Below are positions 1-10,722 of a DNA stretch of 10,722 nt, in pieces. Each line of letters starts with the position of its first letter. Positions within the stretch are counted from its first letter, which is position 1. Position numbers and translations under genes: made by a program. Origin of the DNA: Candidatus Neomicrothrix sp. UBA4742 (GTDB lineage: Bacteria; Actinomycetota; Acidimicrobiia; Acidimicrobiales; Acidimicrobilacustridaceae). Under the pieces are notes generated by a model that was given only the letters and a program-made list of their open reading frames with translations, was not told where the DNA came from and made no database searches. Where the stretch lies: the NCBI GenBank assembly GCA_002403895.1, contig DHIQ01000077.1, positions 2,213 through 12,934 on the forward strand. Direction: 5' to 3'.

Positions 1-612
1 CTCAGGGTCCTCGCCGGCCTGCTGCCCTACGACTCGGGCGACGTTCGAGTGATGGGCGCACCGGTGAAATCACCCAGACCGGAAGTCGGGTTCATGTTCC
101 AGGGCCTTGCTCTGCTGCCGTGGCGAAACGTGCTGCAGAACATCCTGTTGCCGGCGGAACTGGTTGGGATGGACAAGGAACTTGCCTCCGATCGAGCTCG
201 CGTGTGCATCGACATGGTCGGACTCACCGGATTCGAGAAATACCATCTGAGAGAGATCTCCGGGGGCATGCGCCAACGAGTTGCCCTGGCCAGGATGCTG
301 ATGACCGAGGCCCGCCTGCTGTTGCTCGATGAGCCGTTCAGCAGCCTTGATGAGCTGACCCGCGAAGTGATCGACATCGTCTTCATGGACGTCTGTCTCA
401 AGGCGGGGAGCTCGTATCTGATGGTGACGCACAGCATCTACGAGGCCGTCCTCATGTCCGACAAGGTGTTCGTGATGTCGCGAGCGCCGGCCCAGGTCAT
501 CGGCGCGGTGGACGTGGCCCTGCCGAAGCCCAGGACCAGGGAGACCGTCAGCGATCCGGAGTTCGTGAACGCCGCGAACGAGGTAAGGAAGATCTTGGAG
601 ACGTCGTCATGA
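1..612 (+). CDS. ABC transporter ATP-binding protein, nitrate/taurine/thiamine-precursor type (5' partial)
   Basis: Cytoplasmic ATPase that powers the importer encoded by the next two genes. The reading frame is open from base 1, so the N-terminus, including the Walker A loop, lies outside the window; 203 residues are visible. In visible numbering I see the Q-loop FMFQ (Q34), the ABC signature ISGGMRQR (87-93 region), Walker B LLLLDEP (106-112), the D-loop SSLD and the H-loop histidine in MVTHS (H144). The GMRQRVALAR form of the signature region is typical of the SsuB/TauB/NrtD/ThiZ group. The internal GTG at 49 is not a plausible start, because homology continues upstream of it (LRVLAGLLPYDSGDV). 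The stop overlaps the permease start by 4 bases (ATGA), indicating translational coupling. Substrate specificity cannot be read from the ATPase. Confidence 0.95.
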   Translation, partial: LRVLAGLLPYDSGDVRVMGAPVKSPRPEVGFMFQGLALLPWRNVLQNILLPAELVGMDKELASDRARVCIDMVGLTGFEKYHLREISGGMRQRVALARMLMTEARLLLLDEPFSSLDELTREVIDIVFMDVCLKAGSSYLMVTHSIYEAVLMSDKVFVMSRAPAQVIGAVDVALPKPRTRETVSDPEFVNAANEVRKILETSS

Positions 613-1484
613 GTGCCGTTCCCCTATTGAGCGAGCGTGCGCTCGGGAGCGGTGCCCGGATCCTGCACGTCGGATGGTCGACCACGAGGAAGTTGTTCTT
701 CCCGGTGCTCGGCTTTGTGGCCATCGTGGGGATCTGGCAACTCAGCATCGGGCTGACGCACATCCCTTCCTATATCGTTCCAAGGCCGACAGACGTGGCT
801 CGCGCCACCCTCAACGCACCTGGCTTGCTGTGGAGTGGGGTGTTGACGACTGCCGCGGCTGCCGCCGCCGGGCTGCTCCTGGCAGTGGTGATCGGAGTGG
901 CCGGCGCGACCTGCCTGGCGTTCTCGGCCGTGGTGGAGAGGAGCTTGTTCCCGTACGCAATCGTGCTGCAGACCACCCCGGTGATCGCGATCGCTCCCCT
1001 CGTGGTCATCTGGTTCGGGGCGAACATCCGCTCGATCATCGTGATCGTGTTCCTGATCAGCTTCTTCCCCATGCTGTCCAACACCTTGGTCGGACTCCAT
1101 TCCCCGGATCCGGACATGCGGGGGCTATTCCGCCTGTACAAGGCGTCTCCCATGAAGACGATGCTGAAGCTTCGAGTGCCTGGCTCGGTGCCCTACATCA
1201 TGGCTGGGCTCAAGATTGCCGGCGGGCTCTCGGTCATCGGCGCCATTGTTGCGGAGTACGTCGCCGGGGTGGGAGGGGGTCAGGGAGGCCTCGGATATCT
1301 GATCGCGGTTTCCGCGCAGCAATTGAACACCCCCTACCTGGTCGCGGCCGCCCTGTGCGGTTCGCTCCTTGGACTGATCTTCTTCGGGGCGGTCGCCATC
1401 GCCTCCAAGGCGCTCGCCACGCGGCACGATCCGGGTGCCGAGGCGGAAGTGAGAGGAGGGATCACGGGTCGCGTAGGAGGATAG
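609..1484 (+). CDS. ABC transporter permease, SsuC/TauC/ThiX-like
   Basis: Inner-membrane channel subunit of the importer, 291 aa, a usual length for the family. Six hydrophobic segments are visible at roughly residues 30-49, 82-108, 114-136, 140-163, 197-221 and 242-268. The cytoplasmic coupling (EAA-type) loop lies around residues 172-200, with the conserved pattern LRVPGSVPYIMAGLKIA just before the fifth segment; this loop docks on the ATPase. The leading Glu-Ala-Ala is degenerate here (LYKASPMKT), which is common in this group. The ATG overlaps the upstream stop (ATGA), and a GGAG at 597-600 sits 8 bases ahead, so the start is well supported. A 76-base gap holding an inverted repeat separates it from the binding-protein gene. 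Confidence 0.95.
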   Translation: MSAVPLLSERALGSGARILHVGWSTTRKLFFPVLGFVAIVGIWQLSIGLTHIPSYIVPRPTDVARATLNAPGLLWSGVLTTAAAAAAGLLLAVVIGVAGATCLAFSAVVERSLFPYAIVLQTTPVIAIAPLVVIWFGANIRSIIVIVFLISFFPMLSNTLVGLHSPDPDMRGLFRLYKASPMKTMLKLRVPGSVPYIMAGLKIAGGLSVIGAIVAEYVAGVGGGQGGLGYLIAVSAQQLNTPYLVAAALCGSLLGLIFFGAVAIASKALATRHDPGAEAEVRGGITGRVGG

Positions 1485-1504
1485 TCGGCGGGCAGTTCAC
1501 GGCG

Positions 1505-1540
1505 CTCGCGGCGAACATCGGAACGCGTTCGAGCCGCGAG
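1505..1540 (+). promoter_or_regulatory. Inverted repeat/hairpin between permease and binding-protein genes
   Basis: CTCGCGGC at 1505-1512 is exactly complementary to GCCGCGAG at 1533-1540. Inside it GAAC (1513-1516) pairs with GTTC (1527-1530), giving about 12 base pairs with a 2-base bulge and a 10-base loop. It sits between the permease stop and the Shine-Dalgarno of the binding-protein gene and is not followed by a T run. The loop side also contains the 10-base palindrome GAACGCGTTC (1521-1530). It could stabilise or separate the binding-protein transcript, or be an operator; the role is inferred. Confidence 0.45.
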
Positions 1541-1560
1541 GCGAGAGGAGGAAGGGACCA

Positions 1561-2589
1561 ATGGTTGGCTTGATGGGCTCACGGTTCGGAGGGCGGTCGA
1601 TACTTGTCCTCGCAGTGTTCGCCCTTGCCCTTTCGGCGTGCTCTTCCAGTGGGTCCCCCAGCGGAGGCGCCCCGAGCGGCAGCGCTACGCCCACGCCCAC
1701 GACCCTGACCAAGGTCACGGCCATTTTGGGTTGGTACGCGGAGCCCGCGCGGGCGGGCTTCTACGCCGCCCAAGACCAGGGCTATTACCGGAACGTGGGG
1801 ATCGACGCGAACCTGGAGGCGGGCGCTGACGTCTCACCCGAGCAGGTCGTGGGATCCGGCCGGGCGGCCTTCGGCCTGGATGACGCCGATGCTATCCTCC
1901 AAGCGATTGCGCAAGGCGTCCCCATCGTCGCCCTCATGGCCGCCTATCAGCACACGGGCTTCATCATCATGTATCACCAGGGGCAGGGGATTCAAGGGTT
2001 CCAGAATCTCGGGAATCGGACCGCCTACATCTTCCCCGGATCCCTCTGGTGGGACTACATCGTCAAGAAGTACGGGCTGAAGGGAGTGCACCAGGTCGCC
2101 TACTCCGGTGCCCTACAGCCGTTCATCCAGGATCCGACGGCGATCAATCAGGAGTACATCGGGGTCGGGAACGTGACCCTCGCCAGTAAGGGGATCAAGT
2201 TCGGGTACTTCCACGTCTCGGACTCCGGCTACGACCCGTACTCCAATGTCCTGTTCACGACCAAGTCCTACCTGGCAGCCCATCCAGACGTTGTGAAGAA
2301 CTTCGTCCAGGCCACGGTCAAGGGGTGGAATTCGTACCGAACGACCTATGCAACCCTGGACCGCTACATGCAGCAGTTCAACAAGGGTTTCCCAGCCTCT
2401 GCCATGGATCAGAACGCGGTGCAACAGGAGAGCCTGGTCTACGGCGGAGACGCCGCAACGTACGGCATGGGATACATGTCGGCCCAGAGGTGGTCGCAAG
2501 TCGAGGATGCTCTGCTGTCTCTGGGCGCTATCAAGAAGAGGATCGATATTTCCACCGTGTTCACCAACCAGTATCTGCCCGGTCCTTAG
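1561..2589 (+). CDS. NMT1/THI5-like ABC substrate-binding lipoprotein
   Basis: Extracytoplasmic ligand-capture protein of the importer, 342 aa. The N-terminus has a short basic region (R8, R12), a hydrophobic stretch (about 14-24) and the lipobox LSAC with the lipidated cysteine at position 27. A Ser/Gly/Pro/Thr-rich tether follows to about residue 50. The mature domain begins KVTAILGWYAEPARAGFYAA with a nearby GYYRNVGID, matching the start of NMT1/THI5-like proteins. GSGRAAFGLDDAD (98-110) fits the family's ligand-pocket loop. Characterised relatives bind pyrimidine thiamine precursors, riboflavin, sulfonates or nitrate, so a small heterocycle is plausible here, but the ligand is unknown. 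The start at 1561 is preferred because AGGAGG at 1546-1551 lies 9 bases ahead; ATG at 1573 is an in-frame alternative. Confidence 0.93.
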   Translation: MVGLMGSRFGGRSILVLAVFALALSACSSSGSPSGGAPSGSATPTPTTLTKVTAILGWYAEPARAGFYAAQDQGYYRNVGIDANLEAGADVSPEQVVGSGRAAFGLDDADAILQAIAQGVPIVALMAAYQHTGFIIMYHQGQGIQGFQNLGNRTAYIFPGSLWWDYIVKKYGLKGVHQVAYSGALQPFIQDPTAINQEYIGVGNVTLASKGIKFGYFHVSDSGYDPYSNVLFTTKSYLAAHPDVVKNFVQATVKGWNSYRTTYATLDRYMQQFNKGFPASAMDQNAVQQESLVYGGDAATYGMGYMSAQRWSQVEDALLSLGAIKKRIDISTVFTNQYLPGP

Positions 2590-2635
2590 CTGGGCTCGGA
2601 CCGAGGATATGACGCGGGGGGACATGCGGTTGCCT

Positions 2636-2670
2636 GCCTGGGTGCCGGCGCCCGTTCGCCGGCGCCGGGC
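2636..2670 (+). terminator. Strong GC-rich hairpin after the binding-protein gene (possible terminator or mRNA stabiliser)
   Basis: GGTGCCGGCG (2641-2650) pairs with CGCCGGCGCC (2657-2666) over 10 pairs with a single G-U and a 6-base loop. With one bulged G the stem extends through GCCT (2636-2639) against GGGC (2667-2670). There is no T tract after it, so it is not a canonical intrinsic terminator, although many high-GC bacteria lack long T tracts. It lies between the importer genes and the first UbiD gene and may partly insulate or stabilise the upstream message. Confidence 0.45.
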
Positions 2671-2709
2671 AAGGATCTCCCGGACTTCGCACACGCCGAA
2701 GGGAAGAGA

Positions 2710-4071
2710 ATGGTGAGCATAGAAACTGGGCAGACGGTCGCGGTTTCCGACCTGCGATCGATGGTCGCGGCTCTGCGGGCCCAGGACTGCCTTGTGGAGA
2801 TCACCAGCGAGGTCGATCCGGTCCATGAGCTTGGCGCGGTGCTCCACGCTTGTGAAAGGGCCGGCAAGGCGGCCATGTTCCACAAGGTGAAGGGGCACCA
2901 GATCCCAGTGGTGGGGAGCGTCCTCGGATCGTACGAACGGATCGCGATCGCCCTCGGCTGCGAGCCGCAACAGATTCACCAGCGGATGGTGGCGGGAAGG
3001 GCGGCTCCTACCCCGCCTGAGGTGGTCGATTCGGGTCAGGTGCAGGAGGTCGTGGCGGACGGAGACATCGACCTGGCGACCATTCCGATCCCAACGCATG
3101 CCCCGCTCGACGGCGGCCCCTTTATCAATGCTGGGATCGTCATCGCCCGTGATCCGGAGTCGGGCAGACACAACCTCTCCTTCAACCGGATGCAGATTTT
3201 CGACCGCGACCTGGCCGGGGTCAATATGAACGTCTGGCGGGATGTTCGGGAGTTCTTCCTGAAGGCCGAGGCGGCCGGCGAGAATCTTCCGTTCTGCGTT
3301 GCGATCGGGGTCGATCCGGTTCTCCTGATTGCCGGGGCGTCCAAGTACGAGGGCGATGAGTACGAGATCGCTGGGGGTCTTCGAGGGGCGCCCGTCCCGG
3401 TTGTTCGCGCGCTCAGCTGTGATGTGCTCGTTCCGGCGCTCGCCGAGATCGTCCTGGAGGGCGAGGTGCTCGCCGGGGAGCGGCGCGAGGAGGGGCCGAT
3501 GGCCGAGTTCACCGGCCATTACTCGGGGACCGGGCCGCAAACGGTCGCCCGGATCAAGGTCATCACCACCCGACGGGACCCCATCTTCGAGACCATCGCC
3601 GGGGCGTCCTTCGAGCATCTGATTCTCGGCAACGCCGTGACCAGGGAGCCGCTCCTGGATGCAGCCGTTCGTAAGCTCAGCCCGCGCATCGGGCAGGTCT
3701 ATCTGCCCCCGTACGCGTGTGGGTTCACAGCGATCATCAGCATGCGCGGGCCGGAGCCCGGAGAGCCCCAGACGGTCGGATTCGCCGCATTGGCCTCGCA
3801 TGTCAACGTGAAGACGGTGATCATCGTCGATGACGACGTCGATATCTTCGACCCCGCTGACGTGATGTGGGCGTTGTCGACCCGGGTCCGCTGGGACCAG
3901 GGTTCCTTGGTCGCGCCTCACGCACGCGGGAACGACCTGGATCCATCTTCGGACGAGAACGCCGTTCAATCCAAACTGATCGTGAACGCGACGCTCGGGC
4001 GCGGCAGGTCGGAGCGATACACGAAGGTCCGGTACCCGACCGTGGACCTTCGGGAGTACGACGTGACCTGA
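2710..4071 (+). CDS. UbiD-family decarboxylase (first copy)
   Basis: Predicted cytoplasmic prenylated-FMN-dependent (de)carboxylase, 453 aa, near the usual family length. Visible family landmarks: DIDLATIPIPTHAPLDGGPF (119-138); NLSFNR (155-160), whose Asn and Arg match the metal-binding Asn and catalytic Arg of UbiD/Fdc; EYEIAGG (217-223) with the second acidic metal ligand; and PALAEIVLEG (242-251), carrying the two glutamates of the Glu-Arg-Glu catalytic set. EEGPMAEFTGHY and VIIVDDDVDIFDPADVMWA are also typical. Two oddities: the stretch where the family usually has a metal-binding His reads NVWRD (174-178) with no His, and the C-terminal GLDAT-like segment reads IVNAT (424-428). The ATG has GAAGGGA at 2698-2704, 5 bases ahead. 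It is followed after 56 bases by the split-barrel gene. The substrate is unknown; ubiquinone synthesis is unlikely given the neighbours. Confidence 0.92.
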   Translation: MVSIETGQTVAVSDLRSMVAALRAQDCLVEITSEVDPVHELGAVLHACERAGKAAMFHKVKGHQIPVVGSVLGSYERIAIALGCEPQQIHQRMVAGRAAPTPPEVVDSGQVQEVVADGDIDLATIPIPTHAPLDGGPFINAGIVIARDPESGRHNLSFNRMQIFDRDLAGVNMNVWRDVREFFLKAEAAGENLPFCVAIGVDPVLLIAGASKYEGDEYEIAGGLRGAPVPVVRALSCDVLVPALAEIVLEGEVLAGERREEGPMAEFTGHYSGTGPQTVARIKVITTRRDPIFETIAGASFEHLILGNAVTREPLLDAAVRKLSPRIGQVYLPPYACGFTAIISMRGPEPGEPQTVGFAALASHVNVKTVIIVDDDVDIFDPADVMWALSTRVRWDQGSLVAPHARGNDLDPSSDENAVQSKLIVNATLGRGRSERYTKVRYPTVDLREYDVT

Positions 4072-4110
4072 GCGAGGGACAAGGTGGCAAAGGTCGATGG
4101 TGGCAGCCGT

Positions 4111-4119
4111 GGAGGAAGG
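4111..4119 (+). promoter_or_regulatory. Ribosome binding site that sets a GTG start
   Basis: GGAGGAAGG lies 8 bases before GTG 4128. It decides the start of the small split-barrel gene, whose frame is also open far upstream inside the preceding UbiD gene with no real coding signal there. Confidence 0.7.
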
Positions 4120-4127
4120 CGGGATCG

Positions 4128-4592
4128 GTGTCGACGCTGGTAGGGCGTGAGCTGCCGCAGCAGATGCAGACCGAGCTCGACGGTCGGAACCTCGAGACCA
4201 AGAGCAATCTTGGGTACCTGATTGTCACGGTTGACGAGGACGGCGCTCCCAGACCCTGCATGCTCAGCGTCGGGGAAATCCTCGTCATGGACGAGCACAC
4301 CATCCGCCTGGCGGTATGGCCGAACAGCACGACGGCCGCGAACCTTCGGCGGGGAAGCGGGGTGCTGCTCTCCTATGTAGCCCCCAACACGGTCCTGTAC
4401 GTGAGAGGCCACACGCTTCGGACCTGGCAGGCAAGGGTACTGGCGGCAGAGATCGGCGTGGACCAGGTCACGACGGACGAGCATCCGGGATTCACCGTGA
4501 CCGATGGGATCCGGTTCGAGTACGAAGGACGGAGTGAATCACTCGCCACTACATGGGGGAGACAACTGGCCCTGCTCCGAGAGGTTTCCTAA
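4128..4592 (+). CDS. Pyridoxamine 5'-phosphate oxidase-like split-barrel protein
   Basis: Small protein of 154 aa resembling the FMN/F420-binding split beta-barrel superfamily. The core is GYLIVTVDEDGAPRPCML (29-46), then HTIRLAVWPNSTTAANLRRG (57-76) and GVLLSY (78-83). This is the usual arrangement of a first strand pair, then a Trp/Ser/Thr-rich phosphate-binding loop and helix in front of the next strand. The C-terminal half (QARVLAAEIGVDQ, FTVTDGIRFEY) is less diagnostic. The GTG start is chosen from the strong Shine-Dalgarno; a longer reading would run into the UbiD gene in another frame. It sits between UbiD and the molybdenum hydroxylase, so a flavin-linked reductase, flavin-handling or heterocycle-modifying role is possible. 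True pyridoxine oxidase activity is not implied, and the superfamily call is from pattern only. Confidence 0.75.
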   Translation: MSTLVGRELPQQMQTELDGRNLETKSNLGYLIVTVDEDGAPRPCMLSVGEILVMDEHTIRLAVWPNSTTAANLRRGSGVLLSYVAPNTVLYVRGHTLRTWQARVLAAEIGVDQVTTDEHPGFTVTDGIRFEYEGRSESLATTWGRQLALLREVS

Positions 4593-4643
4593 TGGTCCCA
4601 GCTGGCGCCGCTGTCCTCCGCCCCTCGGGCGCATGGAAGCCAA

Positions 4644-7010
4644 GTGGCGTGGGGTGAGTCCTTGAGGGTTCGCGTGCGCGCCCGGACCATCACCTCGCCG
4701 AGGCGGGTGGTCGTTCGCGAGGGCGTCGGCACCAACGCGCGGCACCCGGACGCAACCGTCAAGGTGAAGGGCGAGTTTGTCTACTCCTCCGACCTGCATC
4801 GGGACGGCATGTTGTGGGGGCTGACCCTTCGGAGCCCGCATCCGTACGCCCGGATTCGGGAGATCGACGTGACCGGCGCGCGAGGGATGCCGGGAGTCCG
4901 AGCCATCCTGACCCACCGGGACGTGCCGGGGCGGAAGACCTACGGCATGAAGGTGGCCGACCAGCCGGTCTTGGCCTCCGATGTCGTCCGGTACCAGGGG
5001 GAGCCGGTGGCGGTCGTGGCCGCCGATCACCCCGAGGCTGCTCGGAGGGCGCTGGCGCGGATATCGGTGGATTACCAGGTCCTCGAGCCGCTCGTCGATC
5101 CCCGGGCCGCGCTCGAGCGAGACGCCCCGCTGCTCCACCCTGGGGGCAACCTCGTTCGCCACGTCAAGATCCGACACGGGGACGTGGAGCTGGCCCGGGC
5201 CGCCGCGGAGGTGGTCGTCACCGGCGAGTACGAGATCGGCATGCAGGACCAGGCGTTCCTCGGGCCCGAGTCCGGCCTCGCGGTTCCGACGGAGGATGGC
5301 GGGGTCGACCTCTACGTTTCCTCCCAGTGGCTCCATGAGGACCTGGAACAGGTGGTCGCGAGCCTCGCGTTACCGCCGGAGAAGGTGCGCATCGTGCTCG
5401 CCGGGGTGGGTGGCGCGTTCGGGGGTCGGGAGGACCTCTCCATCCACATCCACGCCTCCATGCTCGCCCTTCGAACCGGTCGGCCGGTGAAGATGGTCTA
5501 CGGACGCGAGGAGTCGTTCTTTGGCCACGTGCACCGCCACCCGGCTCTGATGCGGTTCGAGCACGGAGCGACCCGAGACGGCAAGCTCGTCTTTGTCGCC
5601 GCCCGGCTGCTGCTTGACGGCGGAGCGTACACCTCCACGTCGCAGGTGGTGATCGCCAACGCCTCGTACTTCGCCGCGGGCGCCTATGAAGTGCCCAACG
5701 CTCGGATCGATGGCTTCGCCGTCTACACGAACAACCCGCCAGCCGGCGCCATGCGCGGGTTCGGGGCGGTGCAATCCTGTTACGGCGTCGAGTCGAACAT
5801 GGACAAGCTCGCCGGGGCCCTTGGGATCGATCCCCTTGAGCTTCGCCTGCGAAACGCTATGGGCACTGGAACGGTCCTCCCCACGGGCCAGCCCATCGAT
5901 GGCCCCGCACGAGTCGAGGATCTCCTGTCCCGTCTTCGGGCCATGCCCTTGCCTGACGTGCCCCCCGGGGCCGAAGCGTGGATGTTGCCCGGGGGCCACG
6001 GCAACGTGACGCACGGGGAGGGCGTCCGACGGGGCGTGGGCTACGCGCTGGGGATGAAGGCGATCGGGTACTCCGGGGGCGCCGACGACTACTCCACGGC
6101 GCGGGTCCGTCTCTCGGTTGTCGATGGCGAGCCGACCGCCGAAGTTTGGAGCGCGGCCGTCGAGTGCGGCCAGGGGATCCTGACCGTCCAGGCCCAGATC
6201 GCCCGCACGGAGCTTGGCTTGGAGACCGTGATCGTGCACGAGGCGGACACCTCGATCCCCAACGCCGGTTCCTCCTCGGCATCGCGCCAGACCTGGATGA
6301 CGGGGGGAGCGGTAAAGGGGGCATGTGAGGCCATCCGACGCCGCGTCCTCCAGGGGGCCTCGGGCGCGCTCAGCCGCTCCCTGGACGAACTCATGTTCGA
6401 GGGTGGAGCGGTGGTGGAGATCCGAACCCGCAAGGTCGTGATGCCTCTCGCCGAGGTGCTGGATGATGAGGCGGTCGAGGAGTCCTTCGAATACCACCAC
6501 CGGCCGACGACGTCCATCGATACGGAGACCGGTCAGGGAAACGCCCACGTCGCCTTCGCCTTCGCCGCCCAGCGGGCCGTCGTCGACGTGGATCTCGATC
6601 TGGGACTCGTTCGGGTGGTCGAGATGGCCATCGCCGAAGACGTCGGCAGGGCCATCAACCCGCTCGCCGTCGAGGGACAGATCGAGGGCGGGATCGCCCA
6701 GGGCCTGGGACTGGCGCTCCTGGAGGAACTGCAGGTCGTCCATGGGAAGCTGCGCAACCCCTCGTTCACCGACTACCTGATCCCGACGGTGGCCGATATG
6801 CCGCCGGTGCGCATCGAGTTGCTCCAAACGCCCCACCCGGACTCGCCGTACGGCGTCAACGGGGTGGGCGAGCTCTCCGCGCTCTCCTCGACGCCGGCCA
6901 TCGTGAACGCGCTGCGCAATGCGACCGGTCTGTCCTTGCTGCGCATCCCGGTCCGTCCGGAGGACATCGCGCTCGCGGCTCGGGGAACCGCAGCTGCTGC
7001 CGGTCCATGA
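4644..7010 (+). CDS. Xanthine dehydrogenase-type molybdenum hydroxylase, molybdopterin-binding large subunit (PucD/XdhD-like)
   Basis: Catalytic subunit that would hydroxylate a ring carbon of an N-heterocycle (or an aldehyde) with water as oxygen donor. Up to 788 aa. The N-terminal a/b hammerhead-like domain (about 28-155) has RSPHPYARI and YQGEPVAVVAADHPEAAR. The molybdopterin domain follows, with GGAFGGRED (256-264), the Moco-contact motif AMRGFG (369-374), ECGQG (507-511) and C-terminal GVGE, whose Glu743 matches the catalytic base of xanthine dehydrogenase. The HVHRHPALM and ECGQG..TVQAQIARTELG patterns resemble the PucD/XdhD branch of purine-catabolic dehydrogenases. The start is uncertain: GTG 4644 has a GGAAG 4 bases ahead, while TTG 4662, GTG 4674 and GTG 4707 are in-frame alternatives, and clear homology begins only at VGTNARHPDA. 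The stop overlaps the amidohydrolase start (ATGA). Its [2Fe-2S] partner starts at 10597; no FAD subunit is in view. Confidence 0.93.
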   Translation: MAWGESLRVRVRARTITSPRRVVVREGVGTNARHPDATVKVKGEFVYSSDLHRDGMLWGLTLRSPHPYARIREIDVTGARGMPGVRAILTHRDVPGRKTYGMKVADQPVLASDVVRYQGEPVAVVAADHPEAARRALARISVDYQVLEPLVDPRAALERDAPLLHPGGNLVRHVKIRHGDVELARAAAEVVVTGEYEIGMQDQAFLGPESGLAVPTEDGGVDLYVSSQWLHEDLEQVVASLALPPEKVRIVLAGVGGAFGGREDLSIHIHASMLALRTGRPVKMVYGREESFFGHVHRHPALMRFEHGATRDGKLVFVAARLLLDGGAYTSTSQVVIANASYFAAGAYEVPNARIDGFAVYTNNPPAGAMRGFGAVQSCYGVESNMDKLAGALGIDPLELRLRNAMGTGTVLPTGQPIDGPARVEDLLSRLRAMPLPDVPPGAEAWMLPGGHGNVTHGEGVRRGVGYALGMKAIGYSGGADDYSTARVRLSVVDGEPTAEVWSAAVECGQGILTVQAQIARTELGLETVIVHEADTSIPNAGSSSASRQTWMTGGAVKGACEAIRRRVLQGASGALSRSLDELMFEGGAVVEIRTRKVVMPLAEVLDDEAVEESFEYHHRPTTSIDTETGQGNAHVAFAFAAQRAVVDVDLDLGLVRVVEMAIAEDVGRAINPLAVEGQIEGGIAQGLGLALLEELQVVHGKLRNPSFTDYLIPTVADMPPVRIELLQTPHPDSPYGVNGVGELSALSSTPAIVNALRNATGLSLLRIPVRPEDIALAARGTAAAAGP

Positions 7011-8386
7011 CTCGGGACGGGGACCTGCTCGTGCGCAACGCAACCGTCTGGAGCGGTGGGAGCTGGGCCGGGCCGCGAGACATCTCGGTCCGGGACGGGC
7101 GGATCTCCTCAATCGCTCCACCGGGCGAGACCGTGGCCGCGCCGGGCATTCGCACGCTGAACGCCACCGGGTGTCACGCGCTTCCGGGATTCATCAACAC
7201 CCACACCCACCTCTTTCAGGCGCTGCTACGAGGCGTCGCGGACGGCAAGGGGCTGGGCGACTGGCTGCTTGCAGTGACCGGGGCCTACATCGCTGCCGAC
7301 CCCGAACAGGCCTACGTGGCTGCGGCCTGTGCTGCGGCCGAGGCCTTGCGTTCGGGTGCCACCACGATCGTCGAACACGGCCATCCTCATCCGAACCGGG
7401 AGTTCCACGAGGCGATCATCACTGCCGTCGACGACGTCGGTGTCCGAGCCGTTTACTGCCGCGGCGTGGCAGACAGGGCCGACCCGGCACGGGAGTGGGG
7501 GTTCGAGCCCCGGCTCCTCGAGCCGTACGAGGACCAGCTGGCGCATGTGGAGGAACTTGCAGTGCGGTTCTCGGTTCCTGGGTCCAGGCTCACGGCTGGG
7601 TTGGCGGCCCCCAACCCGCGGTCTCTCAGCCCCGACGGTATGCGTGGCGCGCGAGAGCTGTCCGACCGATACGGCCTGTGTGTCAGCGTGCATGTATGTG
7701 AGACGGGCCTCGATGACCGCGCGTGCCTGGCTCATACTGGGAAACGGGCGCTGCCCTACCTCGACGAGCACGATTTCTTGTGGGATCGGTTCCTGGGCGT
7801 TCATTGCGTCCAAGTTCTGCCCGAGCACAGGGCGCTCATGGCGGCCCGCCGGTGCGGTGTCTCCTACAACCCCATCAGCAACCTACGCCTGGGAAGCGGG
7901 TTCGCGCCGATCCCGGAGTTCCTCAATCTGGATGTGCAGGTGGGCCTCGGCGTTGACGGGGCCGCGAGCAACGACACGCAGGACATGTTCGAAGCGATCC
8001 GCTACGGTGCGTACGTGCAGCGGGGTCGACTGGCCGATGCAGACGCGTTGAGCGCGCAGGCGATGCTTCGCATGGCGACGACTGGATGCAACAGCGTCAT
8101 CGGGGTTGAACCTCGGCCGAAGGGACTCCAGCCGGGACTGCAGGCCGACATGCTGCTCATACGTTTCGACCGCGATCTCTCATCGGTTCCGTTCGTGGAC
8201 CCTACCGTCACGCTGCTGACCCAGGCGACCAGCCGGACCGTGGAGGCAGTCGTCGTGGGGGGAGAGGTGGTAGTGGAGAATGGTCGCTGCACCCGCGTGG
8301 ATGAGGAGGATCTGATCCGCCGCATGGTGCACCTGGGCGCGTCCTCGCCGTTCCGGGGAATCGAGGGAGATGCGGTGCGGCCGTGA
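7007..8386 (+). CDS. Amidohydrolase/deaminase of the cytosine deaminase-8-oxoguanine deaminase-TrzN class
   Basis: Predicted metal-dependent hydrolase of the amidohydrolase superfamily, 459 aa. It would remove an amino group or similar leaving group from a heterocycle. The N- and C-terminal beta-sandwich strands (LLVRNATVWSGG; AVVVGGEVVVENGR) flank a TIM barrel carrying the metal motifs: HTH in GFINTHTHLFQ (H66, H68), VHVCE (H229, E232), GVHC (H266) and GVDGAASND (D317). The HVCE plus HC plus D-G-x-x-S-N pattern is that of the COG0402 group, which includes 8-oxoguanine, isoxanthopterin, S-adenosylhomocysteine and s-triazine hydrolases. The exact substrate cannot be assigned. The ATG overlaps the stop of the molybdenum hydroxylase large subunit and has no good Shine-Dalgarno of its own, so translation is probably coupled. 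That suggests the two act in consecutive steps, hydroxylation and then deamination. Confidence 0.9.
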   Translation: MTRDGDLLVRNATVWSGGSWAGPRDISVRDGRISSIAPPGETVAAPGIRTLNATGCHALPGFINTHTHLFQALLRGVADGKGLGDWLLAVTGAYIAADPEQAYVAAACAAAEALRSGATTIVEHGHPHPNREFHEAIITAVDDVGVRAVYCRGVADRADPAREWGFEPRLLEPYEDQLAHVEELAVRFSVPGSRLTAGLAAPNPRSLSPDGMRGARELSDRYGLCVSVHVCETGLDDRACLAHTGKRALPYLDEHDFLWDRFLGVHCVQVLPEHRALMAARRCGVSYNPISNLRLGSGFAPIPEFLNLDVQVGLGVDGAASNDTQDMFEAIRYGAYVQRGRLADADALSAQAMLRMATTGCNSVIGVEPRPKGLQPGLQADMLLIRFDRDLSSVPFVDPTVTLLTQATSRTVEAVVVGGEVVVENGRCTRVDEEDLIRRMVHLGASSPFRGIEGDAVRP

Positions 8387-8525
8387 GGGCCAATGAGCTG
8401 CTGTCCAGACGCAACCGGAGGCATAGAGCGGGGCGAGTCTGGCCGGTGCTCGGGTTCCGGCCACGAGAACACGCCACCCCCGCGCGTGCGCGCGCGCGGC
8501 ATCTCGGCCCGGAGTGGATGGCTGC
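8387..8525 (+). other. 139-base gap with a hairpin and an alternating CG tract
   Basis: This gap between the amidohydrolase and UbiX genes holds no supportable gene. TGGCCGG (8440-8446) pairs with CCGGCCA (8457-8463) around a 10-base loop. Downstream, 8481-8498 is an unbroken alternating pyrimidine-purine run (CGCGCGTGCGCGCGCGCG), the type of sequence able to adopt Z-DNA. No convincing -35/-10 pair was seen. It may mark a transcript boundary or secondary promoter before the UbiX-UbiD pair; that role is inferred. Confidence 0.4.
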
Positions 8526-9113
8526 ATGAACCAGCGCGAGCGCCTCGTCGTCGGAATCTCGGGGTCCAGCGCACCTCATTACGGCGTCATGTTGCTCCGC
8601 GTCCTGCGGGACCTCGGCACCATCGAGACCCATCTGATCCTGTCGGAAGGAGCGCGCCAAACGGTCAGAGTGGAGATGGACATGGATCCCGCCCAGGTGG
8701 AATCGCTCGCGGATGTGACCTATGACCCCAGGGACCTCGGCGCCGCGGTGTCCTCGGGGTCGTTCCTGACGGTGGGGATGGCGGTGGTGCCCTGTTCCAT
8801 GAAGACGCTTGCGGCCATATCCTCCGGTCACGCAGCAGATCTGCTATCCCGGGCGGCCGACGTGACCCTCAAGGAACGGCGGCGCTTGGTCCTCGTCACT
8901 CGCGAGACGCCGCTCAGCCTCATCCACCTTCGCAACATGGTCGCAGCGACGGAGGCGGGAGCCGTCATCCTTCCTCCGATGCCAGGCTTCTACCACCACC
9001 CGAGGTCGATCGAGGATCTGCTGATGCACACGGTCGGCAAGGTCCTTGACCAGTTCAGAGTGCAACACGACCTGTTCCGCCGGTGGGCCGGTATCGAATC
9101 GGAGGACGGGTGA
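8526..9113 (+). CDS. ubiX: UbiX-family flavin prenyltransferase
   Basis: Predicted cytoplasmic enzyme that joins a dimethylallyl group to reduced FMN to make prenylated FMN, the cofactor of UbiD decarboxylases. It is 195 aa, a normal UbiX length. Landmarks are the FMN-binding GISGSSAPHYG (10-20), PCSMKTLAAISSG (89-101), KERRRLVLVTRETPL (116-130) and ILPPMPGFYHHP (148-159), all in the standard family order. The N-terminal loop has Ser and Pro where many members have GASGA, a modest variant. ATG 8526 is chosen; GTG 8514 in the same frame would add four residues (MDGC) that do not belong to the fold, and a GGAG at 8511-8514 lies 11 bases ahead of the ATG. The stop overlaps the next UbiD start (GTGA), so the cofactor maker and at least one cofactor user are translated together. 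It probably serves both UbiD copies. Confidence 0.95.
   Translation: MNQRERLVVGISGSSAPHYGVMLLRVLRDLGTIETHLILSEGARQTVRVEMDMDPAQVESLADVTYDPRDLGAAVSSGSFLTVGMAVVPCSMKTLAAISSGHAADLLSRAADVTLKERRRLVLVTRETPLSLIHLRNMVAATEAGAVILPPMPGFYHHPRSIEDLLMHTVGKVLDQFRVQHDLFRRWAGIESEDG
9101..9106 (+). promoter_or_regulatory. Ribosome binding site favouring GTG 9110 for the second UbiD
   Basis: GGAGGA lies inside the end of the UbiX gene, 3 bases before GTG 9110, which itself overlaps the UbiX stop as GTGA. The spacing is short, but the site makes 9110 a better start than GTG 9083 deeper inside UbiX. TTG 9134 is a weaker in-frame alternative. Confidence 0.5.
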
Positions 9114-10495
9114 GTCCGGTTCACGGTTCCGACTTGTCAAAGAAGCAGGACGCACGTCGTTTCTTGGACGACTACCGCGCCGACTATCCGGAGGACGTGC
9201 TCGTCATCGAGGAGACTGTCAGCGCAGATCAGGGCGTGACCGCTCTGGTGAGCGAGCTGTCGGACCAGGGCCGGGCACCGATCATTATGTGTACCCACGT
9301 CGATGGAATCTCGGTCCCGGTCGTCACGAACCTGTTCGCAGCCCGGGAGCGGATCGCCCGTTTCCTCGGGTCGAGCCTCGAGGGCCTCCACGACGCTTTC
9401 GTTGCCGCCAGCTCCCGAGCCATGCCTCCTCGGATCGTGCCCGACGGCCCGGTGCTTGAGGTGGTGCAGAAGGACGAGGAGGTTGATCTGAGCCGACTGC
9501 CCATGCTGACGCACTTCGCGCAGGACCGGGGTCCGTACCTGACCAGCGCGATCATCGTGGCCGAGGATCCTCGCAGCGGGATCGGGAACGCCAGTTACCA
9601 CCGGTCGATGATCGTTTCGAGAACCTCTCTCGCCACGAGCCTGCACTCTCGGGGCCACCTATGGCGATACCTGCTAGCTGCATCCGAGGCCAAGGTGCCC
9701 TTGCCGGTGGCGGTGGTCATCGGCGGGCACCCCCTGTTCATGCTCGCCAGCGCCGCCCGGGTCGGCATCGACCGGGATGAGCGAGATATCGCGGGTGGCC
9801 TGTTCGCCGAGCCGCTCGAGCTCGTGACCACGCCACAGTACGGCATCGGTGTCCCGGCGAGTGCTGAGATCGTACTCGAGGGTGTGATCGACGCGACGAA
9901 ACACGCCGACGAAGGGCCGTTCGGGGAGTTCTCCGGATACGCCACATCTCGGTCGACGAATAACCTCATCGAGGTCTCTGCGATGCTCAGCCGCCGCGAC
10001 CCGATCCTCATCGATGTGGTCTCCGGCAACGCGGCGGACCATCTGAATCTCGGCCGGGTTCCTCGGGAGTCGGAGATGTCGGCCAGGCTGAGCGAGCGGT
10101 TCCCCGATGTGCAGGCGCTTGAGTACCCCGCCTCCGGCACGCACTTCCATTGTTACGTATCGGTGCGTCAGAGCACGCCGGGAATGGCCCGGCAGGTGGC
10201 GCTCGGGCTCCTGGGGTGGGATCCCTACCTGAAGCTGGTCGTCGTCGTGGATGACGACATCGACATCAGGAGAGAGGATCAGGTGCTGTGGGCCGTCGCG
10301 ACGCGCTTCCAGGCTGACCGCGACATGCTCATGATCGGCGGCCTTCCGGGCAGCATGCTCGATCCGTCTTCAAACGGAGGCGCGACGGCCCGACTTGGGC
10401 TGGACGCCACTCGACCCCCTGGGTTTGCCGCGGAGCGGGTGACCGTCGCCGAAGAAGCGTTACTGCGCGCTCGAGAGATCCTGGGGGGGCACTGA
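9110..10495 (+). CDS. UbiD-family decarboxylase (second copy)
   Basis: Predicted prenylated-FMN-dependent (de)carboxylase, 461 aa from GTG 9110. It carries EVDLSRLPMLTHFAQDRGPY (124-143), NASYHR (160-165) with the metal-binding Asn and catalytic Arg, RGHLW (181-185) offering the expected metal-ligand His (H183), ERDIAGG (224-230) with the acidic metal ligand, and PASAEIVLEG (249-258) with the two catalytic-site glutamates. VVVVDDDIDIRREDQVLWAVATRFQ and a C-terminal GLDAT segment are also typical. All expected active-site positions therefore look intact, unlike the first copy. The two proteins are clearly diverged paralogues rather than a recent duplication. Overlap with UbiX by 4 bases implies coupled synthesis. 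The substrate is unknown; family members act on phenolic acids, acrylic acids, furan, pyrrole and indole carboxylates, among others. Confidence 0.93.
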   Translation: MSPVHGSDLSKKQDARRFLDDYRADYPEDVLVIEETVSADQGVTALVSELSDQGRAPIIMCTHVDGISVPVVTNLFAARERIARFLGSSLEGLHDAFVAASSRAMPPRIVPDGPVLEVVQKDEEVDLSRLPMLTHFAQDRGPYLTSAIIVAEDPRSGIGNASYHRSMIVSRTSLATSLHSRGHLWRYLLAASEAKVPLPVAVVIGGHPLFMLASAARVGIDRDERDIAGGLFAEPLELVTTPQYGIGVPASAEIVLEGVIDATKHADEGPFGEFSGYATSRSTNNLIEVSAMLSRRDPILIDVVSGNAADHLNLGRVPRESEMSARLSERFPDVQALEYPASGTHFHCYVSVRQSTPGMARQVALGLLGWDPYLKLVVVVDDDIDIRREDQVLWAVATRFQADRDMLMIGGLPGSMLDPSSNGGATARLGLDATRPPGFAAERVTVAEEALLRAREILGGH

Positions 10496-10550
10496 ACCGT
10501 GAACGGCACTTCCCTCTTCTCGGTGGGGAGGAGCTGAATCCCTCCTGCCT

Positions 10551-10575
10551 GTCTGGGAGCCTCGGGGCCTCAGAC
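10551..10575 (+). other. Imperfect hairpin before the [2Fe-2S] subunit gene
   Basis: GTCTG (10551-10555) is complementary to CAGAC (10571-10575), with AG/CT and CC/GG pairs inside and small bulges. It lies in the 101-base gap between the second UbiD and the iron-sulfur subunit, just ahead of that gene's Shine-Dalgarno. There is no T run. A second weak stem (AGGAG 10529-10533 with CTCCT 10542-10546) lies just upstream. Function is unknown; it could be incidental. Confidence 0.25.
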
Positions 10576-10596
10576 GGGCGATCGAAGGGAGCGGCG

Positions 10597-10722
10597 ATGA
10601 TTCTGCGAGCAAGAGTGAACGGCGAGTGGCGGGAAGCCGACTCATGGCTGGGGTCGAGCCTCTTGTCGGTGCTGCGAGAGGATCTCGGGCTCGCTGGATC
10701 CAAGAACGCGTGCGAGCAGGGC
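10597..10722 (+). CDS. [2Fe-2S] small subunit of a xanthine dehydrogenase-type molybdenum hydroxylase (3' partial)
   Basis: The first 42 residues are visible before the window ends; full members are about 150-180 aa. The sequence opens with a ferredoxin-like strand (MILRARVNGEWREAD), then SLLSVLREDLGLAGSKNACEQG. The run Leu-x-x-x-Leu-Arg-x-x-Leu-Gly-Leu-x-Gly-x-Lys-x-x-Cys-Glu-x-Gly is the classic lead-in to the plant-type [2Fe-2S] cluster. C39 is its first ligand, and the next cysteines fall beyond the edge. ATG 10597 has AAGGGAG (10585-10591) 5 bases ahead. This would be the electron-transfer partner of the large subunit at 4644-7010, but it is separated from it by three other genes. A FAD-binding subunit, normally needed to complete the enzyme, may follow downstream. 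Confidence 0.9.
   Translation, partial: MILRARVNGEWREADSWLGSSLLSVLREDLGLAGSKNACEQG

Follow-up and report, generated by a model that had tools for sequence, protein, structure and literature searches.

The window analysed here, the whole stretch of 10,722 nucleotides from contig DHIQ01000077.1 of Candidatus Neomicrothrix sp. UBA4742, carries an island of ten genes that includes two UbiD-type genes (UbiD1 and UbiD2), a UbiX gene, a molybdenum (Mo) hydroxylase, a deaminase and an importer. Immediately upstream lies a gene for an Amidohydro_2 metal amidohydrolase (AH2), and AH2, UbiX and UbiD2 recur together on proteobacterial plasmids. The window seems to hold a local version of an uncharacterised pathway module that is borne on plasmids. 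The chances appear about even that the operon breaks down an oxidised pteridine- or purine-type ring compound linked to xanthine; the exact reactions, from tetraoxypteridine to xanthine-8-carboxylate to xanthine, are proposed tentatively.

The window corresponds to G000:C266:2213-12934, G000 being a 3.55-Mb metagenome-assembled genome (MAG) that is 79% complete. A longer identical contig in GTDB, the 16.3-kb DHWS01000072.1 (Actinobacteria bacterium UBA5176, here L005), contains the whole window letter for letter and is in turn contained in contig C35 of a second MAG, G313. A preliminary description had listed ten co-directional genes with short gaps or overlaps. Translation of open reading frames (ORFs) and profile searches place all ten on the forward strand, and the list was right, with the likely starts of UbiX and UbiD2 mended to 8526 and 9110. 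It had also advised extending the contig in search of more catabolic genes. Upstream, L005 adds a GntR/FCD regulator and AH2, which proved to be the most conserved partner of UbiD2; downstream it adds the remainder of the 2Fe-2S subunit of the Mo-hydroxylase (PF01799 and PF00111 matches in L005:12836-13300), a flavin adenine dinucleotide (FAD)-dependent oxidoreductase, a 5-formyltetrahydrofolate cyclo-ligase-like ORF and a transposase-like ORF. In the G000 contig, 268 bases of N stand immediately upstream of the window; the same stretch is legible in L005.

Five gene pairs overlap by 4 bp (GntR/AH2, AH2/ATPase, ATPase/permease, Mo-hydroxylase large subunit/deaminase and UbiX/UbiD2), and the remaining intergenic gaps in the window measure 51-139 bp. 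The 2Fe-2S subunit gene lies downstream of UbiD2, and Mo-hydroxylase genes thus flank UbiX-UbiD2 on both sides. Because of the five overlaps and the 2Fe-2S subunit beyond UbiD2, the gene order supports a real operon of twelve genes, running from GntR to the 2Fe-2S subunit.

Sixteen proteobacterial loci, picked for variety from plasmid records, were compared using one shared query set. Two AH2 genes (AH2a and AH2b), UbiD, UbiX and a CobW-type GTPase are each found in all 16, an NCS2 nucleobase permease in 14 and an XdhC match in seven. The Mo-hydroxylases of these clusters are xanthine dehydrogenase (XDH)-like: a large subunit of a close type (at least 72% identity to that of Ensifer) is present in 9/16 loci, a distant large subunit in three and a 2Fe-2S match alone in one, with none in the stretch in the other three. 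Twelve loci have a deaminase, of the PRK07583 type in eight (two cut at the stretch edge) and of the PRK12393 type in four; neither was found in the stretches of the remaining four. Of the plasmid records, 97 contain relatives of UbiD2 (no more than 60% identity), 63 of these records being from Sinorhizobium, and 91 contain relatives of AH2, at 181 places. Both sets come from the same ten genera. Clusters were found in Sinorhizobium, Ensifer, Paracoccus, Shinella, Caballeronia and others. The carriers are plasmids and megaplasmids, and the module is also found in the laboratory strain Sinorhizobium meliloti 1021.

Given this co-occurrence in other replicons, chance does not account for AH2, UbiD2 and UbiX being grouped. 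A search for conserved co-occurrence of the island's families had been advised; it holds for UbiD and UbiX, together with AH2 (16/16 loci), whereas the importer type, UbiD1 and a small ORF lie outside the conserved module. These three are linked to the island by this one contig and are local additions. In a second organism, the longest contig listed for a deaminase relative (P0001, 68%) has 36,590 bases, as has that listed for a UbiD2 relative (P0126, 72%), which suggests that the two genes are neighbours there.

In the AH2 tree the island's copy clusters with the AH2b copies (support 100/100), and it retains H6, H8, H123, H155, H183 and D235. The AH2a copies (L034, L035, L037, L039, L042-L044) are without H6, H8 and H123, which the AH2b copies keep; AH2a and AH2b are thus likely a tandem pair of enzyme and pseudo-enzyme, as judged from these residues. 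In the UbiD tree (fork drawn open), UbiD2 is placed among the UbiDs of the clusters, apart from HmfF and UbiD1. Both UbiD1 and UbiD2 retain the E-R-E triad. In the UbiD of S. meliloti RCAM1115 (L042:14986-16359), Ala stands in place of the first Glu of this triad, which four other Sinorhizobium records retain.

In 5/5 Sinorhizobium loci an Rfam search places a xanthine riboswitch (RF03054) immediately ahead of AH2a, with scores of 43.4 bits in L041, L042 and L079, 41.5 in L076 and 41.4 in L077, against a gathering score of 36. It is the sole match on the S. meliloti RCAM1115 replicon (1,641,120 bases), and 0/14 control genomes have one. In the portions of Yu and Breaker (PMC7373994) consulted, riboswitches of this class are described as OFF switches responding to xanthine and uric acid; the genes under their control would, when expressed, increase the level of oxidised purines. 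Genes associated with the class include those for NMT1/THI5-like proteins, transporters and PRK12393-type deaminases. An OFF switch suggests that xanthine or urate is a product of the operon and not its substrate.

The direction of the switch bears on a second explanation. Clostridial xanthine breakdown passes through 4-amino-5-imidazolecarboxylate and 4-aminoimidazole. By analogy, the amidohydrolases would convert xanthine to 4-amino-5-imidazolecarboxylate, UbiD would produce 4-aminoimidazole, and the deaminase would follow. The clusters do have a nucleobase permease and a xanthine link, and imidazole C4/C5 would be better suited to prenylated flavin mononucleotide (prFMN): HudA, a related prFMN enzyme, converted 1.3% of imidazole-4-carboxylate, according to the sections of PMC7976604 consulted. 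However, a xanthine OFF switch as outlined in those sections of PMC7373994 would silence xanthine breakdown when it is needed. In addition, AH2a is without three histidines kept in AH2b, so that two separate metal amidohydrolases are doubtful, and no formiminoglycine-type genes are present among the annotated features of the loci viewed, some of which are unannotated. Such a route is considered quite unlikely.

The preferred reading, breakdown of an oxidised pteridine- or purine-type ring compound, would involve most genes of the operon. The THI5-type ATP-binding cassette (ABC) importer would take up the ring compound, and the PucD-type Mo-hydroxylase, with large and 2Fe-2S subunits encoded here and an FAD subunit from elsewhere, would oxygenate ring carbons. 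The deaminase would strip the amino group off the 2-amino-4-oxopyrimidine ring, and AH2 would open and then reclose the second ring. UbiX would supply prFMN, and UbiD2 would remove the carboxylate produced by AH2. In its sharpest form the route would run from pterin or isoxanthopterin to 2,4,6,7-tetraoxypteridine, then to xanthine-8-carboxylate (the two are isomers, both C6H4N4O4), and finally to xanthine and CO2. One active amidohydrolase site, the AH2a histidines being lost, is a better fit to a single isomerase than to two separate hydrolases. It is possible, if rather doubtful, that AH2b (with a degenerate AH2a in Proteobacteria) isomerises 2,4,6,7-tetraoxypteridine, that UbiD2 decarboxylates the product and that xanthine switches the operon off in Sinorhizobium. 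As a weak guess, UbiD1 might take off a side-chain-derived carboxylate, e.g., that of pterin-6-carboxylate. The carboxyl group may either be present on the imported substrate or arise within the pathway.

A carboxylated, amino-bearing heterocycle had been foreseen in the preliminary description. A nucleobase- or pterin-like compound is supported by the NCS2 permeases, the xanthine riboswitch and the Caballeronia cluster deaminase, whose best PDB match (457 bits) is 2PAJ, which we take to be isoxanthopterin deaminase; the AH2 step was missing from that scheme. Three further Burkholderiales loci have deaminase copies 81-90% identical to that of Caballeronia.

The carboxylate might also be removed directly. 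Here the substrate of UbiD1 and/or UbiD2 would be pterin-6-carboxylate or lumazine-6-carboxylate, formed as folate is degraded, and AH2 would act later on the ring. The presence of two UbiDs in one operon, together with a deaminase and a Mo-hydroxylase, agrees with this, and the excerpts of PMC9513972 consulted name lumazine-6-carboxylic acid as a candidate intermediate of folate degradation. Direct decarboxylation nevertheless leaves the xanthine riboswitch and the constant AH2-UbiD partnership unexplained, and UbiD1 is outside the conserved module; it is thought unlikely.

Several observations weigh against the pteridine/purine reading and its sharpest form. The five Sinorhizobium riboswitch sequences are near-identical and therefore represent one lineage. 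RF03054 is absent from the window and L005, and it gave a match in 0/14 non-Sinorhizobium cluster loci scanned (L045 was outside the scan); the riboswitch is found in Sinorhizobium loci only and is no defining trait of the whole cluster group. The window Mo-hydroxylase is just 33-35% identical to those of the clusters, and the window deaminase just 31-33% identical to the Burkholderiales cluster deaminases; each belongs to another clade. L005 has no FAD subunit of the Mo-hydroxylase, and PF00941 genes above cut-off are found elsewhere, three in G000 and three in G313. In a structure search with the model of the window deaminase, 2PAJ ranked 23, after adenosine, isocytosine and 8-oxoguanine-type deaminases. 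HudA did not decarboxylate imidazole-2-carboxylate, C2 being too electron-poor in the view of its authors (PMC7976604, in the sections cited above). Xanthine C8 is such an electron-poor position, and this result thus weighs on the xanthine-8-carboxylate step.

The PRK07583-type deaminases also fit a pyrimidine substrate: in the two tested of the eight, the closest PDB entry is a cytosine/5-methylcytosine deaminase. In a carboxylated pyrimidine pathway the deaminase would act on a cytosine form (5-carboxycytosine) and UbiD on 5-carboxyuracil. The model of the window deaminase, which is also near isocytosine deaminase, agrees with this, but the xanthine riboswitch, the 2PAJ-like deaminases in four loci and the XDH-like Mo-hydroxylases do not, and the pathway appears very unlikely.

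The window deaminase itself scores below the curated cut-offs of its profiles (PRK08203, 241 vs 532 bits; PRK12393, 226 vs 543 bits). Its metal-binding and catalytic residues H66, H68, H229, E232, H266 and D317 are invariant across 26 aligned rows, and its AlphaFold model (predicted local distance difference test, pLDDT, 92.7) has a fold resembling purine/pyrimidine deaminases. Identification as a pterin deaminase by structure comparison was not retained, the enzyme not being singled out as such. The large subunit of the Mo-hydroxylase is 58% identical to a Nonomuraea protein and 55% to a Streptomyces protein. Among the ten ORFs scanned beside these PucD-type subunits, no purine-degradation family was found, the exceptions being, in Streptomyces, an FAD subunit and a gene of the XdhC type.

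Furan catabolism of the hmf type is not the pathway class. Its mention is prompted by the best PDB match of UbiD1 and UbiD2 alike, 6h6v, which we take to be HmfF; positions 296 (H) and 304 (R) of 6h6v are kept in both. No coenzyme A (CoA) ligase is present among the scanned ORFs of L005, as had already been observed for the window and held against an hmf route, nor was an AMP-binding ligase, enoyl-CoA hydratase-like or GMC gene found there, whereas the hmf-like clusters L047 and L048 carry an AMP-binding protein and a GMC oxidoreductase. UbiD1 is about 38-40% identical to the UbiDs of L047 and L048, and they occupy separate tree branches. The furan route, extremely improbable, was rejected on gene content and UbiD branch. 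Elsewhere in G000 a further UbiD lies beside a UbiX (L002, G000:C188); this UbiX is 51% identical to that of the window, and the UbiD groups near HmfF in the tree.

The nearest relative of UbiD1 is a Burkholderiales protein (61-62% identity) in another neighbourhood (L007), where translations read by eye indicate MmgE/PrpD-like, acyl-CoA synthetase-like and TTT-type binding proteins. UbiD1 therefore offers no pathway clue. It was dropped as a key gene because of the L007 context and because its plasmid relatives are just 38-40% identical. The small ORF gave no significant match in a PDB search and no relatives in 147 other genomes of the class. Its structure model (pLDDT 33.6) was unusable for a search, and the only profile match is a weak one to PNPOx_N, below cut-off; it is an unproven candidate for a prFMN helper (PhdC/YclD-type maturase).

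The contig has been assigned to two MAGs that belong to different classes (G000:C266 and G313:C35), and the host is therefore unsure; the contig is misbinned in at least one MAG, or transferred. Its G+C content is 65.7%, compared with 69% in sampled stretches of both MAGs. By four-letter words it lies at a distance of 0.219 from G000 and 0.162 from G313; when 20-kb stretches were left out one by one, most gave 0.07-0.12. Close relatives of the deaminase (E<=1e-90), UbiD2 (1e-100) and AH2 (1e-60) are each found in 2/396 genomes of the phylum, solely G000 and G313, on the same contig. UbiD2 is found in 1/27 genomes of the class of G313. At 1e-40 the deaminase has matches in 34/148 class genomes, at no more than 34% identity outside its own genome, and UbiD1 in 9/148, at no more than 40%; the plasmid set has no match to the window deaminase at 1e-50.

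The atypical composition in both MAGs, the transposase-like ORF by the contig end and the other neighbours of the UbiD1 relative in L007 would suit a mosaic, in which AH2-UbiX-UbiD2 by chance came to lie with the importer, UbiD1, small ORF, Mo-hydroxylase and deaminase, and these act on unrelated substrates. However, AH2 and the importer share a 4-bp overlap, as do UbiX and UbiD2, and most clusters, too, combine the module with a Mo-hydroxylase and a deaminase. A chance assembly is judged very improbable.

Table 1. Predicted features of the island and its flanks (window positions unless marked L005)
Feature	Position	Strand	Remarks
AH2, Amidohydro_2 metal amidohydrolase	L005:1023-1979		just outside window, upstream
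ABC transporter ATPase	1..612	+	PF00005; 5' end cut by window edge, start L005:1976
ABC transporter permease, SsuC/TauC type	609..1484	+	PF00528, 82.6 bits
NMT1/THI5-like substrate-binding lipoprotein	1561..2589	+	PF09084, 115 bits; lipobox-like LSAC
UbiD1, prFMN-type decarboxylase	2710..4071	+	TIGR00148, 319 bits (cut-off 244.85)
Small ORF, 154 amino acids, weakly PNPOx-like	4128..4592	+	PF01243, E 0.003, below cut-off
Mo-hydroxylase large subunit, PucD type	4644..7010	+	NCBIfam TIGR03196 pucD, 848.2 bits (cut-off 783.65)
COG0402-type aminohydrolase, 2-amino-4-oxopyrimidine deaminase-like	7007..8386	+	PF01979
UbiX flavin prenyltransferase	8526..9113	+	TIGR00421, 235.8 bits (cut-off 108.9); NF004685, 258.3 (cut-off 188)
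UbiD2, AH2-linked UbiD group	9110..10495	+	TIGR00148, 277.8 bits (cut-off 244.85)
[2Fe-2S] subunit of Mo-hydroxylase, first 42 codons	10597..10722	+	ends L005:13300
FAD-dependent oxidoreductase (tryptophan halogenase-like family), then 5-formyltetrahydrofolate cyclo-ligase-like ORF	L005:13506-15373		downstream of island
Transposase-like helix-turn-helix ORF	L005:15534-16070		close to contig end

The full copy of the ABC ATPase in L005 has Walker A, signature-like and Walker B motifs, and the PDB relatives of the NMT1/THI5-like lipoprotein are 4nmy, THI5 and the ThiY-type 3ix1.

If the proposed route is correct, the island and its proteobacterial relatives would supply the genes so far lacking for a bacterial route from pteridines to purines. 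Bacterial pterin breakdown would thus get its genes, pterins arising wherever folate and biopterin decay. The chemistry of prFMN would extend to purines, and UbiD2 would be the first enzyme of its kind with a purine substrate. Since the module is carried by soil bacteria that are tractable, on their plasmids and megaplasmids, an old biochemical question would be open to study by deletion mutants and enzyme assays. Among open-licence PMC papers, none was found to describe this combination of genes; for the Sinorhizobium genes, only two transcriptome papers naming genes with nearby numbers turned up.

Among known systems, the hmf furan clusters share a Mo-hydroxylase and UbiD/UbiX with the island but differ in having a CoA ligase and other hmf genes, and their UbiDs are distant. 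The large subunit resembles PucD xanthine dehydrogenase, scoring above the NCBIfam cut-off; unlike that enzyme, it is found with UbiD/UbiX and without an FAD subunit. The AH2a-AH2b-UbiD-UbiX clusters, which are uncharacterised and were found in this analysis, resemble the island in AH2 (b type, 73-78% identity), UbiD (55-60%) and UbiX (51-57%), and in having a Mo-hydroxylase and a deaminase near. The island differs in its single AH2 (no second, AH2a-type copy and no CobW matched on L005), its PucD-type Mo-hydroxylase, its other deaminase clade, its extra UbiD1 and its THI5-type ABC importer in place of NCS2; neither NCS2 nor XdhC was found on the window contig. Deamination of pterins by COG0402-type enzymes, as in the route of the pterin deaminase Arad3529, is a further likeness; Fan et al. 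in 2013 reportedly placed this enzyme at the start of an undescribed pterin degradation route. Among open-licence PMC papers, neither a gene assigned to the tetraoxypteridine isomerase of McNutt nor a paper on it was found. The tetraoxypteridine isomerase/xanthine-8-carboxylate route that McNutt is said to have described in the 1960s consists of the same reactions as those proposed for the island.

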